Source of the DNA: Anaerolineaceae bacterium
GTDB taxonomy: Bacteria; Chloroflexota; Anaerolineae; Anaerolineales; UBA11657
NCBI GenBank assembly: GCA_003569365.1
Contig: BGOS01000016.1
Location: 93,948-157,947, forward strand
Direction of reading: 5' to 3'
DNA: 64,000 bases
Shown here: one piece after another, positions 3,713 to 11,640 of the stretch
Position numbering within the stretch: the stretch's first letter is position 1
How the letters are laid out: each line of letters starts with the position of its first letter
Program-made: the position numbers and the translations under genes
Notes under the pieces: generated by a model
What the model saw: only the letters and a program-made list of their open reading frames with translations
Told to the model about the DNA's origin: nothing
Databases searched by the model: none

Positions 3713-4633
3713 ATGAATATTCTGGTGACTGGCGGGCTGGGGACGGTGGGGGCGCCGCTTTGCACGGAGCTGCGCCGGCGCGGCCACAACGTGTGGGTGT
3801 GTGACTTGACGCATGCCCCGGCACCCAATTACATGCGCTGTGATATTGGCGACTCGCGCCAGCTGGCGCGCGTGCTGGATGCGGCGCAGCCTGAACTGGT
3901 GTTTCATCTGGCGGCGGAGTTTGGGCGCTGGAACGGCGAGGACTACTACGAACGCGTGTGGGCCACCAACGCCATTGGCACAAAGCATTTGCTGCGCCAG
4001 CAGGAGGCGCGCCGCTTCCGGCTGGTGTTCACCAGCAGCTCTGAGGTCTATGGTGATTACGAGGGGCTGATGACCGAGGCTGTGCTGGCGCAGCATCCCA
4101 TCCGGCAGTTGAATGACTACGCCATCTCCAAGTGGGTCAACGAGCAGCAAATCATGAATTCTGCCGACCGCCACGCAACAGAGACCGTGCGCGTGCGGCT
4201 CTTCAACACCTACGGCCCGGGCGAGTATTACAACGAGTACCGCAGTGTGGCGTGCCAGTTTATCTACCGTGCGCTGCACGATCTGCCGTACACCGTGTAC
4301 CTCAACCATCACCGCACTTCTTCATACATTGATGACACGGTACGCACGCTCGCAAATCTGGCGGATGCCGGCCGTTTTCTTGCGGGCAATGTTTACAACA
4401 TTGCCGGTGCCGAATACCACGATATCAAGCAGCTGTCGGATCTGGTGCTGCGCCTGACCGGGCGCGACGATAGCCGCGTGCAATATGTGGAGCGCGAGGC
4501 GCACAACACGCTTAACAAGCGCGGCGACCTGACCGATGCCAGCCGTGACCTTGGCCACGTGGCGCGCTTTGATCTGGCTGCGGGTGTGCCGCTCACAATC
4601 GCGTGGCAGCGCAAGGTGTACGGCGTGCAATGA
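3713..4633 (+). CDS. NAD-dependent epimerase/dehydratase (extended SDR)
   Basis: MNILVTGGLGTVGAPL; SSSEVYGDYEG; YAISKWVNE (YxxxK); RLFNTYGPGEYYNEYRS. Confidence 0.9.
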   Translation: MNILVTGGLGTVGAPLCTELRRRGHNVWVCDLTHAPAPNYMRCDIGDSRQLARVLDAAQPELVFHLAAEFGRWNGEDYYERVWATNAIGTKHLLRQQEARRFRLVFTSSSEVYGDYEGLMTEAVLAQHPIRQLNDYAISKWVNEQQIMNSADRHATETVRVRLFNTYGPGEYYNEYRSVACQFIYRALHDLPYTVYLNHHRTSSYIDDTVRTLANLADAGRFLAGNVYNIAGAEYHDIKQLSDLVLRLTGRDDSRVQYVEREAHNTLNKRGDLTDASRDLGHVARFDLAAGVPLTIAWQRKVYGVQ

Positions 4634-5835
4634 TGCAACCGCAAAAGATTGTGGTGATTGGGACCGGCTATGTGGGCCTGCCGGCTGCGCTGCTGCTGGC
4701 GCGCGCCGGCCACTCTGTGGTCGGGGTGGACATCAACGACAACATTGTGCGCGCCATCAATGAGGGCGTGCTGCACATTAATGAAGCAGCGCTGCAAGCC
4801 ATCATGGATGAGCCGGCCGTGCGCGCCAACCTCACGGCACAGGCCACGCCCTGCGCTGCGGATGTGTTCTTCATTGCAGTGCCCAGCCCGCTGGACCAGC
4901 GCAAAAAGGTGGCGGACCTGAGCATGGTTGTGGCAGCGGTGGAAGGCTTGGTGCCTTACTTGCGTGCCGGCAATCTGGTGGTGCTCGAGTCCACTGTGCC
5001 GCCGCTCACCTGCCGCGAGTTGCTCACGCCCATCCTTGAACGCTCCGGCCTGAAGGTTGGCGAGAACCTTTTTCTGGCGCACTGCCCGGAGCGCATTTTG
5101 CCTGGTGATGTGTTTTACGAAATTGTGCACAACGACCGCATCATCGGTGCGCGCGATGCGCATTCCCGCAAGCTGGCGGCTGCGGTATACAGCAGTTTTG
5201 TAAAGGGCGAGCTGCTCGAGACCGATGATGTGACCGCTGAGCTGTGCAAGTTGATGGAGAACACTTATCGCGATGTGAACATTGCGCTTGCCAACGAACT
5301 GGCTGCGGTTGCTGCGACGCTGGGCATTGACGCGCGCGCTGCCATTGCACTTTCCAACCGCCATCCGCGGGTCAACCTGATGGAGCCGGGCATCGGCGTG
5401 GGCGGGCATTGCATTCCCATCGACCCGTGGTTCATCAAGGAAGTTGATCCGGCCAACTCGCGCCTCATCTTTGCGGCGCGCATGGTGAACGATGAGATGC
5501 CGCACCGCGTGGCTGCGCGCGTGCGCCAGTCCGTGCGCGGCGTGCCGGGTCCGCGGATTGTGGCGATTGGGGCTGCCTACAAGCCAAACACCGAGGACAT
5601 GCGCGAGAGCCCGGCCGTGCATGTGGTGGAACTGCTGCGCGCCGATGGCTACGACGTGGCGCACTTTGACCCGCTGGTGAAGGGCATGGCGTATCCGGAT
5701 ACCCTGGCAAAGGCCTGTGCCGGTGCGGATTGCCTTGTAATACTGGTGGAACATGCCGGTGTGATGGCAGAGCTGGATGCCCAGCGCCCGGAAATTGACC
5801 GCAATATGCGCACGGCGCAGGTCTTGCGCTTTTGA
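4630..5835 (+). CDS. nucleotide-sugar dehydrogenase (UDP-ManNAc dehydrogenase-like)
   Basis: IVVIGTGYVGLPAALLLA; GGHCIPIDPWF; AYKPNTEDMRESPAVHVVELL; start overlaps the upstream stop (ATGATG). Confidence 0.88.
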   Translation: MMQPQKIVVIGTGYVGLPAALLLARAGHSVVGVDINDNIVRAINEGVLHINEAALQAIMDEPAVRANLTAQATPCAADVFFIAVPSPLDQRKKVADLSMVVAAVEGLVPYLRAGNLVVLESTVPPLTCRELLTPILERSGLKVGENLFLAHCPERILPGDVFYEIVHNDRIIGARDAHSRKLAAAVYSSFVKGELLETDDVTAELCKLMENTYRDVNIALANELAAVAATLGIDARAAIALSNRHPRVNLMEPGIGVGGHCIPIDPWFIKEVDPANSRLIFAARMVNDEMPHRVAARVRQSVRGVPGPRIVAIGAAYKPNTEDMRESPAVHVVELLRADGYDVAHFDPLVKGMAYPDTLAKACAGADCLVILVEHAGVMAELDAQRPEIDRNMRTAQVLRF

Positions 5836-5864
5836 TGCGGCTGGGTTATTATTTCCGTCGATGA
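5835..5864 (+). CDS. putative leader peptide 1: MRLGYYFRR
   Basis: ATG overlaps the stop codon of the upstream CDS (TGATG); YYF codons; its stop overlaps the ATG of the second short ORF (ATGA). Upstream of the aromatic operon terminator. Confidence 0.45.
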   Translation: MRLGYYFRR

Positions 5865-5932
5865 GCGCGAAGTATTTTGGAGGCTATTACTACTTCGGTG
5901 CCGCGCGTGCGGCCACCGTGGCTTCGCCTTAA
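5861..5932 (+). CDS. putative Tyr/Phe-rich leader peptide 2: MSAKYFGGYYYFGAARAATVASP
   Basis: 23-codon ORF with TAT TTT and TAT TAC TAC TTC runs, about 30 nt upstream of a perfect intrinsic terminator, directly before chorismate mutase and DAHP synthase genes. Confidence 0.65.
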   Translation: MSAKYFGGYYYFGAARAATVASP

Positions 5933-5962
5933 GTAGACTCGAGCCTTTTCGGATGAGTTCAC

Positions 5963-5995
5963 AAGCGCGGAGCAACCCTCCGCGCTTTTTGTTTT
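5963..5995 (+). terminator. intrinsic terminator (probable attenuator) upstream of aroH
   Basis: AGCGCGGAG-CAACC-CTCCGCGCT followed by TTTTGTTTT: 9-bp perfect stem, 5-nt loop, U tract. Confidence 0.85.
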
Positions 5996-6010
5996 ACATG
6001 AGGTGGCAAT

Positions 6011-6388
6011 ATGGCAAAGACTTGTCGCGGGGTGCGCGGCGCAATTACAGTGGAGCAAAACGCGCCGGAGGATATTCTCAGCGGCACGCGCGAGCTGCTG
6101 CAGGCACTGATTGCTGCGAATGGAATTGTGGTGGAGGATGTGGCGTCAGTGTTTCTGAGCGCGTCGCCGGATCTCACGGCCGAGTTTCCGGCATTGGCGG
6201 TGCGCGAGCTGGGCTGGCTGGAGACTGCCGTGCTCTGCACGCACGAGATGCAGGTGCCGCACGGCCTTGAGCGCTGTGTGCGCGTATTGCTGCACTGGAA
6301 CACTGAGCGCACGCTGGGCGAGATCGAACATGTCTATCTGAAGGGTGCGGTGAAGCTGCGGCCGGACCGCGCACCAAAAGGCAAGTGA
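6011..6388 (+). CDS. aroH: chorismate mutase, AroH type
   Basis: 125 aa; CRGVRGAITVEQNAPEDI, FLSASPDLTAEFPA, VPHGLERCVRVLLHWNT, HVYLKGAVKLRPD. Confidence 0.92.
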   Translation: MAKTCRGVRGAITVEQNAPEDILSGTRELLQALIAANGIVVEDVASVFLSASPDLTAEFPALAVRELGWLETAVLCTHEMQVPHGLERCVRVLLHWNTERTLGEIEHVYLKGAVKLRPDRAPKGK

Positions 6389-6465
6389 GTGTTGCGCAAT
6401 TGGATTGCCGGCGGATCTGCCGGCAGCGGATTATTGATGAGCAATCATCCAAGGAGTGATGTGAA

Positions 6466-7476
6466 ATGGTGATCGTAATGCAGGCGGGTGCCACACCCGC
6501 GCAGATAGCTGCAGTTGTGGCGCGGGTGGAACAGGACGGATTGAAGACGCAAATTGTGCGGGGCACAGAACGCAACATCGTGTGTGCACTGGGCGATGAC
6601 CGCCTAGTGGACAAGCGCGCGTATGCGGTGCTTGAAGGTGTGGAGACGGCGACGCCAATCCTCAAGCCGTTCAAGCTGGCGTCGCGCGAGGCGCAGCCGG
6701 CAGACAGCACCGTGCACCTCAAAACGCTGCGCGTGGGCGGCCCAACGATTGCGATTATTGCCGGCCCATGCTCCGTGGAGAGCCGCCCGCAGATGCTGGA
6801 AATTGCCCACGCTGTGAAAGAGGCCGGCGCGCATGCATTGCGCGGCGGGGCCTTCAAGCCGCGCAGCTCGCCGTACAGCTTTCAAGGCATGGGCGAGGAA
6901 GGCCTGATGATTCTGGCCGAGGCCGGTGCGGCTACCGGCCTGCCAGTAGTGACCGAGGTGATGTCTGCCGAGCAACTGGTGCTTGTGCAAAAGTATGCGG
7001 ATGTGCTGCAGATCGGCGCCCGCAACATGCAGAACTATGAGCTGCTGCGCGCCGTCGGTGCCGCCAAGCTGCCCGTGCTGCTCAAGCGCGGCCTGATGTC
7101 CACAATTGAAGAGCTGCTGATGAGCGCCGAGTACATTCTTTCATCGGGAAATCCACACGTGATCTTGTGCGAGCGGGGCATCCGCACTTTTGAGAAATAC
7201 ACGCGCAACACCACCGACATCAACGCCATCCCGGTGCTGAAACATATGACGCATTTGCCAGTAATGCTCGACCCCAGCCACGGCGTGGGACAGTGGGAGT
7301 ATGTGCCGGCTGTGGCGCGCGCGGCTGTGGCTGCCGGCGCTGATGGCTTGCTGGTAGAAGTGCACAATCATCCGGATCAGGCGCTGTCTGATGGCGCGCA
7401 AAGCTTAAAGCCCGAGGTCTTCGCGGCGCTGGTAAAAGAATGCCGCGCTGTGGCTGGCATTATCGGCCGCAATTAA
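6466..7476 (+). CDS. aroF: 3-deoxy-7-phosphoheptulonate synthase, type I-beta (copy 1)
   Basis: 336 aa; [74 protein letters not shown]. Confidence 0.95.
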
Positions 7477-7497
7477 CTTGTACAAATTGGAGGCGCA

Positions 7498-8508
7498 ATG
7501 ATCATCGTGATGCGCGCGGGCGCTTCCCGCGAAGAAATTGACAATGTGGTGGCGCGCGTTGCGCGTGATGGCTTCACGGCGCATTTGAGCGCCGGCGCGG
7601 AGCGCACCATCATCGGCCTGATTGGCGATGACCGGCCGCTCGATCGGCAGTTATATGAAGTGCTGCCCGGCGTTGAGAAGGCGATGGCCGTGCTCAAGCC
7701 GTTTAAGCTGGCGTCCCGCGAGTTCTCTGCCGCGGATACTTTGGTGAATATCAAGGGCGTGGTCATTGGCGGCTTGCCGGTGGTGCTGATGGCCGGGCCA
7801 TGCGCGGTGGAAAGCCGCAGCCAGCTGCTTGAGATAGCGCATGCGGTAAAGGCGGGTGGCGCCCAAGTGCTGCGGGGCGGTGCCTTCAAGCCGCGCAGCT
7901 CGCCGTATAGCTTTCAGGGGCTGGGCGAGGAAGCGCTGAAGATACTGGCGGAGGCGCGCGAGCAAACAGGCCTGCCAGTGATCACGGAAATCATGACGCC
8001 TGAGCATCTGCCCATGGTTTGCGACTACGTGGACATGCTGCAAATTGGCGCGCGCAACATGCAAAACTATGAGCTGCTTAAGGGCGTTGGCCGCACCACG
8101 CTGCCGGTGCTGCTGAAGCGCGGGCTGATGGCAACCATGGAGGAACTGCTGATGAGTGCGGAGTACATTCTGGCTGCCGGCAACCGGCAGGTGGTGTTGT
8201 GCGAGCGTGGCATCCGCACTTTTGAAAAATACACACGCAACACAACGGACATCAATGCCATTCCCGTGCTCAAGCACCTGACGCATTTGCCGGTAATGCT
8301 GGACCCCAGCCATGGCACTGGCACTGCGCGGTACGTGCTGCCCGTGGCGCGCGCAGGCATTGCTGCGGGTGCGGACGGGCTGCTGGTGGAGGCGCACTGC
8401 AATCCGGAGGAAGCGCTTTCAGATGGCGGCCAGAGTCTGCGGCCAGAACAATATTCCGAGCTGGTGCGCCAGGTGCGCGTCATTGCGCGCGCTGTCGAGC
8501 GCAGTTAA
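7498..8508 (+). CDS. aroF: 3-deoxy-7-phosphoheptulonate synthase, type I-beta (copy 2)
   Basis: 336 aa tandem paralogue: [60 protein letters not shown]. Confidence 0.95.
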
Positions 8509-10764: not shown

Positions 10765-11640
10765 ATGCCAGCCACTCCGCAAGCGCAAACCGGTTCAGTG
10801 CCAACGATAGTCATCCTTGGGCATCCGGTGCATCACAGCGTTTCGCCCGCAATGCAGGGCGCTGCATTTGCTGCGCTGGGTTTGCCGCACCGGGTGGTGG
10901 CGGTGGATGTGCCACCCGCAGAACTGCCTGCGGCAATTGCGCGCTTTCGCAGCGGCGAGTGGGCGGGCGGCAACGTGACCATTCCGCACAAGCGCGCCGT
11001 GCTGGCGCTGCTCGATGAGGTGACGGACACCGCAGCACTGCTGGGTGCGGCCAACACAATCATCAATCGCGACGGGCGGCTGGTGGGAGACAACACGGAT
11101 GCAGCCGGCTTCAGTGCAGATTTGGACACCCATGCGGTTGATGTGCGGGGCGCGCCCGTGCTTGTGTTTGGCACCGGCGGCTCTGCGCGCGCGGTGGCCT
11201 ATGCTTTGCTGCAGCGCGGGGCGGCCGAGGTGCGTTTGCTGGGCCGCAACATTCCGCAGGGCGCACAGCTTGCGCGCGAACTGCATGCCGTCACCGGCGG
11301 GCGGCTGATAAATTTTGCGTGGACACCAACCGATGTGGGCGATGCATCCCACGGCTGCGTGCTTGTGGTGAACTGCACCCCGCTGGGCATGACTCCGGAC
11401 ATCCACACCACGCCCTGGTTCCAGGTTGTGCCGTTCAACAGCAAGCCCTTCGTTTACGACCTTGTATATAATCCAGCGCAGACGCTCTTGCTGCGGCAGG
11501 CGCTCTCGCACGGCCTGCGCGGTGCCACCGGGTTGGGCATGTTGGTGCAGCAGGGCGCACTTGCGTTCCAGCGCTGGACCGGCCGCGCAGCGCCAGTGAA
11601 CATCATGCGTGCCGCAGCGGAAGCCAAACTTTATGCTTAG
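10765..11640 (+). CDS. aroE: shikimate dehydrogenase
   Basis: ILGHPVHHSVSPAMQ (canonical SxS), NVTIPHKRAVL, GDNTDAAGF, VFGTGGSARAV, GLGMLVQQGALAFQRWTG. Confidence 0.93.
   Translation: MPATPQAQTGSVPTIVILGHPVHHSVSPAMQGAAFAALGLPHRVVAVDVPPAELPAAIARFRSGEWAGGNVTIPHKRAVLALLDEVTDTAALLGAANTIINRDGRLVGDNTDAAGFSADLDTHAVDVRGAPVLVFGTGGSARAVAYALLQRGAAEVRLLGRNIPQGAQLARELHAVTGGRLINFAWTPTDVGDASHGCVLVVNCTPLGMTPDIHTTPWFQVVPFNSKPFVYDLVYNPAQTLLLRQALSHGLRGATGLGMLVQQGALAFQRWTGRAAPVNIMRAAAEAKLYA

Follow-up and report, generated by a model that had tools for sequence, protein, structure and literature searches.

Attenuation by leader peptides belongs to the textbook repertoire of gene regulation, and most known cases come from Proteobacteria and Actinobacteria. 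According to a 2010 survey, leader peptides had been known only from these two phyla before its own His case in the Firmicutes (PMC2965389). Among published cases, the uORFC-13-1 motif of Acholeplasma comes nearest to the locus described here: it lies 5' of aroF and likewise combines a predicted Phe-coding upstream ORF with a terminator ahead of a DAHP synthase gene (PMC8632094). It differs in being known solely from reports on Acholeplasma and environmental sequences, in having a ribosome binding site, in having aroF downstream, and in its sequence. Here, we analyzed a 64,000-nucleotide stretch of Chloroflexota DNA (the window) and argue, from sequence comparison and folding, that a short Tyr/Phe-rich ORF (ORF2) and the terminator at 5963-5987 very probably constitute a ribosome-mediated transcription attenuator of an aroH-DAHPS-DAHPS-tyrA-aroA-aroE-aroC operon.

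Direct reading of the locus confirmed the coordinates and overlaps of two short ORFs that the initial annotation had listed, their nine Tyr/Phe codons (three in ORF1 and six in ORF2), and the position of a terminator and aroH downstream (Table 1). The perfect terminator stem and U tract that it described are present, with the stem measuring 10 bp rather than 9. In ORF2, Tyr/Phe codons make up 6 of the 23 codons and occupy positions 5, 6, and 9-12, the putative control codons. The terminator (5963-5987) was the sole terminator-like match in a scan of positions 4500-7500. The operon that follows runs from 6011 to about 12805 and was confirmed with Pfam: aroH, two DAHP synthase genes, and genes for prephenate dehydrogenase (tyrA), EPSP synthase (aroA), shikimate dehydrogenase (aroE), and chorismate synthase (aroC). 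A further scan found no convincing terminator between 5987 and the end of aroC; a match at 11143 falls within aroE. The two DAHP synthases, encoded in tandem at 6466-7476 and 7498-8508 in this one operon, belong to one type, combining a ferredoxin-like domain with DAHP_synth_1, and perhaps differ in feedback control. In the genome that contains the window (assembly G000, 95.5% complete), no match was found to PF04715 (TrpE N-terminal domain) or TIGR00468 (pheS), reflecting either gaps in the assembly or a Trp requirement together with a divergent PheS.

Table 1. Features of the aroH leader region, in window coordinates.
Feature	Position	Strand	Remarks
UDP-sugar dehydrogenase (upstream gene), stop TGA	5833-5835	+	read directly
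Probable sigma70-like promoter	5824-5852	+	-35 TTGCGC 5824-5829, 17-nt spacer, -10 TATTAT 5847-5852
ORF1 MRLGYYFRR, ATG to TGA	5835-5864	+	ATG overlaps upstream stop as TGATG
ORF2, leader peptide MSAKYFGGYYYFGAARAATVASP, ATG to TAA	5861-5932	+	homologous ORF in relatives
Local hairpin GGUGCCGC-GCGU-GCGG(C)CACC	5897-5917	+	from folds; 3' of the Tyr/Phe codons, includes CCGCGC
Segment 2, predicted antiterminator 5' strand	5918-5930	+	last leader codons into the stop codon; partner 5963-5976
Segment 3, predicted antiterminator 3' strand (terminator 5' arm + loop)	5963-5976	+	terminator scan, folds
Intrinsic terminator	5963-5995	+	10-bp stem, arms AAGCGCGGAG/CTCCGCGCTT (5963-5972/5978-5987), then TTTGTTTT; loop CAACC 5973-5977, T tract to 5995
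aroH, chorismate mutase type I	6011-6388	+	Pfam; first gene of operon

Short start-to-stop ORFs with at least six aromatic residues are common enough in the window (46 of 2577) that the Tyr/Phe run of ORF2 is, on its own, within chance; among these 46, ORF2 has the highest aromatic fraction. The folding free energy of the leader region was unremarkable compared to shuffled sequences and uninformative (z -1.27). Because neither measure exceeds chance, the case for an attenuator rests on conservation in relatives. We searched for AroH in 80 related genomes and oriented 50 upstream regions (L001-L050), about 48 of which were long and complete enough to judge. A single aromatic-rich leader ORF and a terminator lie directly 5' of aroH in 44 of these roughly 48 readable same-order relatives. 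The leaders are 20-30 codons long, contain five to ten aromatic residues (about 30% Tyr/Phe/Trp), as in MKNNNFIFYYYFTLGKGPRVVLA, MRTWFASYRYFYYFGRVPPVAVGGA, MKGYWSFFYAYFYGAPKAAVASR, and MLKSARWFAYFYFYGFRNSAAVGGA, and stop 76 to 163 nt short of where the AroH match begins; 19 of the 44 contain Trp codons beside Tyr/Phe. ORF2 of the window is the homologue of this single leader. No such leader was found in the aroH upstream regions that we checked from Planctomycetes, Dehalococcoidia, and Acidobacteria. The initial annotation had proposed a Tyr/Phe-sensing leader attenuator of the aro operon, and the retention of both the Tyr/Phe codons and the terminator in nearly all relatives supports this proposal. 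The same genus is represented by two metagenome-assembled genomes, one of them ZSMay80m-chloro-G1; from names such as this we infer that the lineage is a lake bacterium.

In addition to the conserved Tyr/Phe-rich leader, an alignment of 42 relatives (A1) revealed covariation in both the terminator and an alternative pairing. Counting changes without correction for relatedness, the terminator is 94.8% paired with both-side changes in 8 of 10 pairs (slid controls, 36-48%), and the antiterminator is 83% paired with both-side changes in 6 of 9 pairs (slid controls, 31-49%). In most relatives the last leader codons read GCCGUUGGC or similar, complementary to GCCAACGGC, which comprises the inner 5' arm of the terminator, the loop, and the first 3' bases. 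L039, for example, has GGCUGUUAG/CUAACAGC in place of the usual GCCGUUGGC/GCCAACGGC. Segment 2 is kept as RNA despite a different reading frame in seven loci (L027, L031, L035, L041, L047, L077, and L078), which points to selection on the RNA itself; assembly errors could explain some of these frame changes, but hardly all. At the level of sequence, these comparisons establish a leader, a terminator, and a covarying antiterminator complementarity positioned before aroH. A protector hairpin (ACGGC:GCCGU) that follows the aromatic codons and would hide segment 2 has weaker support in A1 than the antiterminator; it is predicted in 31 of 40 relatives and is weak in the window's genus. A further pairing (P1) between the aromatic-codon region and sequence past the stop codon is strong in roughly one genome in three (for example CUGUCCGCUU/AAGCGGACAG in L036) and is not strong in the window.

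The antiterminator suggested by the initial annotation paired CCGCGC (5901-5906) with GCGCGG (5965-5970). The complementarity is genuine, but the conserved antiterminator is 5918-5930 with 5963-5976. CCGCGC:GCGCGG was the best isolated duplex (-16.3), but in context CCGCGC is tied up in the local hairpin at 5897-5917, and conservation of the pairing was not seen outside the genus. For segment 2 of the window, the complementarity by itself was not significant in the isolated duplex test (p 0.30), and the fraction of shuffles in the context fold was 0.03; the assignment of segment 2 in the window therefore rests on homology and the context fold. A small hairpin at 5936-5956, between the leader stop and the terminator, lies within the predicted antiterminator fold, and its sequence is kept in both same-genus genomes.

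We then folded the leaders with all nucleotides up to 15 nt past the A-site excluded and the transcript ended before the 3' arm of the terminator. In all 40 genomes, the antiterminator was predicted to form with the ribosome on the aromatic codons (mean probability 0.68) and to be lost with the ribosome at the stop codon (0.00); dinucleotide-shuffled leaders gave 0.31 in the masked folds. In the absence of a ribosome, segment 2 pairing averaged 0.18 and was below 0.3 in 31 of 40 genomes, with values of 0.51-0.85 in the window's genus. In the window, pairing of 5918-5930 with 5963-5976 is available through A-site codon 16 and lost from codon 18 on, placing the predicted switch between antiterminator and terminator at codon 17, past all the Tyr/Phe codons (5-12). 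At equilibrium, the terminator of the window is favored at every ribosome position (P about 0.96). Accordingly, the switch must be kinetic and decided during transcription. Classic attenuators likewise switch kinetically.

The probable promoter overlaps the 3' end of the upstream gene and ORF1, and its -10 element ends 8 nt before the ATG of ORF2. A generic promoter scan of the window reported no promoter there, because the -35 element matches at only 3 of 6 positions. Among the 44 relatives, 36 have a promoter-like site (TTGAC-like/TAnnAT, at least 8/12) whose -10 element ends 5-14 nt before the leader ATG, compared to 4% of shuffles. Since a promoter-like site sits just before the leader ATG both in the window and in relatives, the leader mRNA is probably nearly leaderless. 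These observations bear on the idea, put forward in the initial annotation, that ORF1 and ORF2 are translated as a coupled chain with both sensing Tyr/Phe. Both frames are real, the TGATG overlap with the upstream gene and the ATGA overlap of the ORF1 stop with the ORF2 start would allow coupling on transcripts reading through from upstream, and both same-genus genomes carry an equivalent of ORF1 (MGYYFAR in L002 and MRLGYYLSV in L003). However, ORF1 is confined to the genus: it is absent from the same-family loci L006, L010, L011, L014, and L017, and in 40 or more relatives a single leader is enough. Moreover, its tyrosine codons TAT TAT are, letter for letter, the -10 hexamer at 5847-5852, ORF1 would lie outside the main transcript if this promoter is used, and its Phe codon is lost in L003. 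We consider a coupled double leader highly improbable; ORF1 is probably not a functional leader and the doubling an artefact, although readthrough transcripts of the upstream gene may still allow some translation of ORF1.

Three other explanations take ORF2 itself to be incidental or to serve another purpose. The terminator might merely end the upstream nucleotide-sugar operon, with the short ORFs arising by chance as other aromatic-rich short ORFs in the window do; ORF2 starts 26 nt past the dehydrogenase stop, and the terminator would also halt upstream readthrough. The leader and terminator, however, stay with aroH across dozens of genomes while the sequence farther upstream varies, and mere termination does not need the conserved alternative pairing, so that we regard this possibility as next to negligible. 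A function of the leader peptide as a small protein, for which peTrpL of Sinorhizobium meliloti provides a comparison (PMC7298713), could account for the similarity of the peptides among relatives (MLKSARWFAYFYFYGF...). It is made very improbable by the C-terminal half, which is in different frames in several genomes with the RNA unchanged, and by a conserved part that tracks the RNA pairing. Finally, the RNA might sense a protein or metabolite (as a T-box, a riboswitch, or an RNA-binding protein site), with the leader ORF a bystander; such systems all combine an intrinsic terminator with an alternative fold. This reading is extremely unlikely: no Rfam family matched the window leader, with neither the leader families (Phe, Trp, His, Leu, Thr) nor T-box giving a covariance-model match at gathering score, and nothing relevant came up in 11 relatives at E up to 1. 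What is conserved amounts in essence to the leader ORF with its 3' end and the terminator, and the codon content of the leader tracks the amino acid of the operon.

We therefore favor attenuation by a ribosome translating ORF2, and infer the following course of transcription start, stalling on starvation, and readthrough in vivo. RNA polymerase would start immediately before the leader ATG (5861), and translation of ORF2 would begin on an mRNA with hardly any 5' untranslated region or none. When charged tRNA-Tyr or tRNA-Phe runs short, the ribosome would stall on codons 5-12, leaving 5918-5930 free to pair with the emerging 5963-5976; the terminator would be blocked and polymerase would continue into aroH through aroC. 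When Tyr and Phe are plentiful, the ribosome would reach the ORF2 stop and cover 5918-5930, the terminator would form, and transcription would end at about 5995. In most relatives, but only weakly in this genus, the further hairpin is predicted to sequester segment 2 in ribosome-free RNA, which would complete the classic 1:2 / 2:3 / 3:4 arrangement.

A covariance model (R1) built from A1 matched one copy in the genome containing the window, 41 of 298 genomes of the class, and 30 of 350 genomes of the phylum, the last including six genomes of one genus outside the class. We read the weak matches, namely those beyond the order together with that in G591 and the second match of G012. Most are leaders of aroH/DAHP synthase, aspartokinase (Thr/Met), or pheS (Phe) genes; in a few (L105 and L115) the leader frame or downstream gene is ambiguous, and the G591 match (L140) was clearly false and not an attenuator. 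In three loci from outside the class (L138, L139, and L141), the leader MQSFNSFNSYAFFSSYFYYFSCHIELSLPTKD lies 5' of aroH and a DAHP synthase gene, indicating that the aro attenuator occurs outside the class too. In other Anaerolineae, Thr/Met-rich leaders (for example MSISPFTTTNTMTTTARTRQPSLPVG) precede aspartokinase genes (L106, L107, L112, L127, L129, and L137), with an antiterminator/terminator core nearly the same as that of the aroH leaders; the region upstream of aspartokinase in the window's own genome has no clear Thr leader. In L114, a Phe-rich leader without Tyr or Trp (MMNTRFFSFFFRNAAQLFAQEVVSA) and a terminator lie 5' of a pheS-like gene, named from its sequence. Upstream of hisG, a leader with a His run was present in 19 of 19 readable regions, the window's own genome included, and in nearly all of them a T tract lies a short way 5' of hisG. 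The copy in that genome (L145; contig C18, hisG from near C18:10843) lies about 150 nt 5' of the gene; it encodes MAILVCKHHHRQCSTAPRI from a GTG start 6 nt past a TACTAT -10-like box and has its terminator directly before hisG; its antiterminator probability was weak in the same masked-folding test. Codon content follows the downstream gene: aroH leaders are 14% Tyr, 14% Phe, and 1% His, hisG leaders 20% His and 1% Tyr, and aspartokinase leaders 27% Thr and 12% Met. On balance, we lean toward the view that in Chloroflexota, chiefly Anaerolineae, leader-peptide attenuation is a general form of amino acid control, in which a near-leaderless mRNA and a shared core (GCCGUYGC...GCCAACGGC) are re-used with swapped codons (Tyr/Phe for aroH, Thr/Met for aspartokinase, and Phe for pheS, with the His leaders of hisG similar in layout). 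If true, this would represent a phylum-level regulatory strategy so far undescribed.

Conservation of the putative aro attenuator appears to span an order; beyond it, further copies occur across the class and in one additional lineage of the phylum, and the codons match the operon. The switch offers an explanation of how aromatic amino acid synthesis may be tuned in uncultured freshwater Chloroflexota, and the analysis yields a covariance model as well as sites that can be tested. We found no Chloroflexota case of such an attenuator in the open-access literature, and novelty for the phylum is not certain; the attenuator is of a familiar type, but for this phylum it seems undescribed. With the pheA, trp, and his attenuators of E. 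coli it shares a short ORF rich in the end product, mutually exclusive antiterminator and terminator, and placement before a biosynthetic operon. It differs from the E. coli Phe, Trp, and His leaders in Rfam in its sequence, its phylum, and its mixed Tyr/Phe codons (with Trp in 19 of 44); in addition, its mRNA is probably nearly leaderless with no Shine-Dalgarno site, and the antiterminator strand reaches the leader stop codon. The His leader attenuators of Firmicutes were likewise found by comparison outside Proteobacteria (PMC2965389, PMC9413887), in another phylum and before another operon, of which the hisG leader in the window's own genome is an analogue. The predicted 5'-terminal position of the leader ORF and its amino-acid-matched codons recall the leaderless trpL attenuator RNA of Sinorhizobium meliloti (PMC7298713) and, as far as their citation in PMC13236596 describes them, the leaderless polycysteine ORFs of mycobacteria (Canestrari 2020). 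Those systems belong to other phyla, carry Trp and Cys codons, respectively, and have measured transcription starts, whereas the present leaders carry Tyr/Phe codons and a predicted start. The present case suggests that sensors of this kind are naturally built on leader mRNAs that are themselves nearly leaderless.
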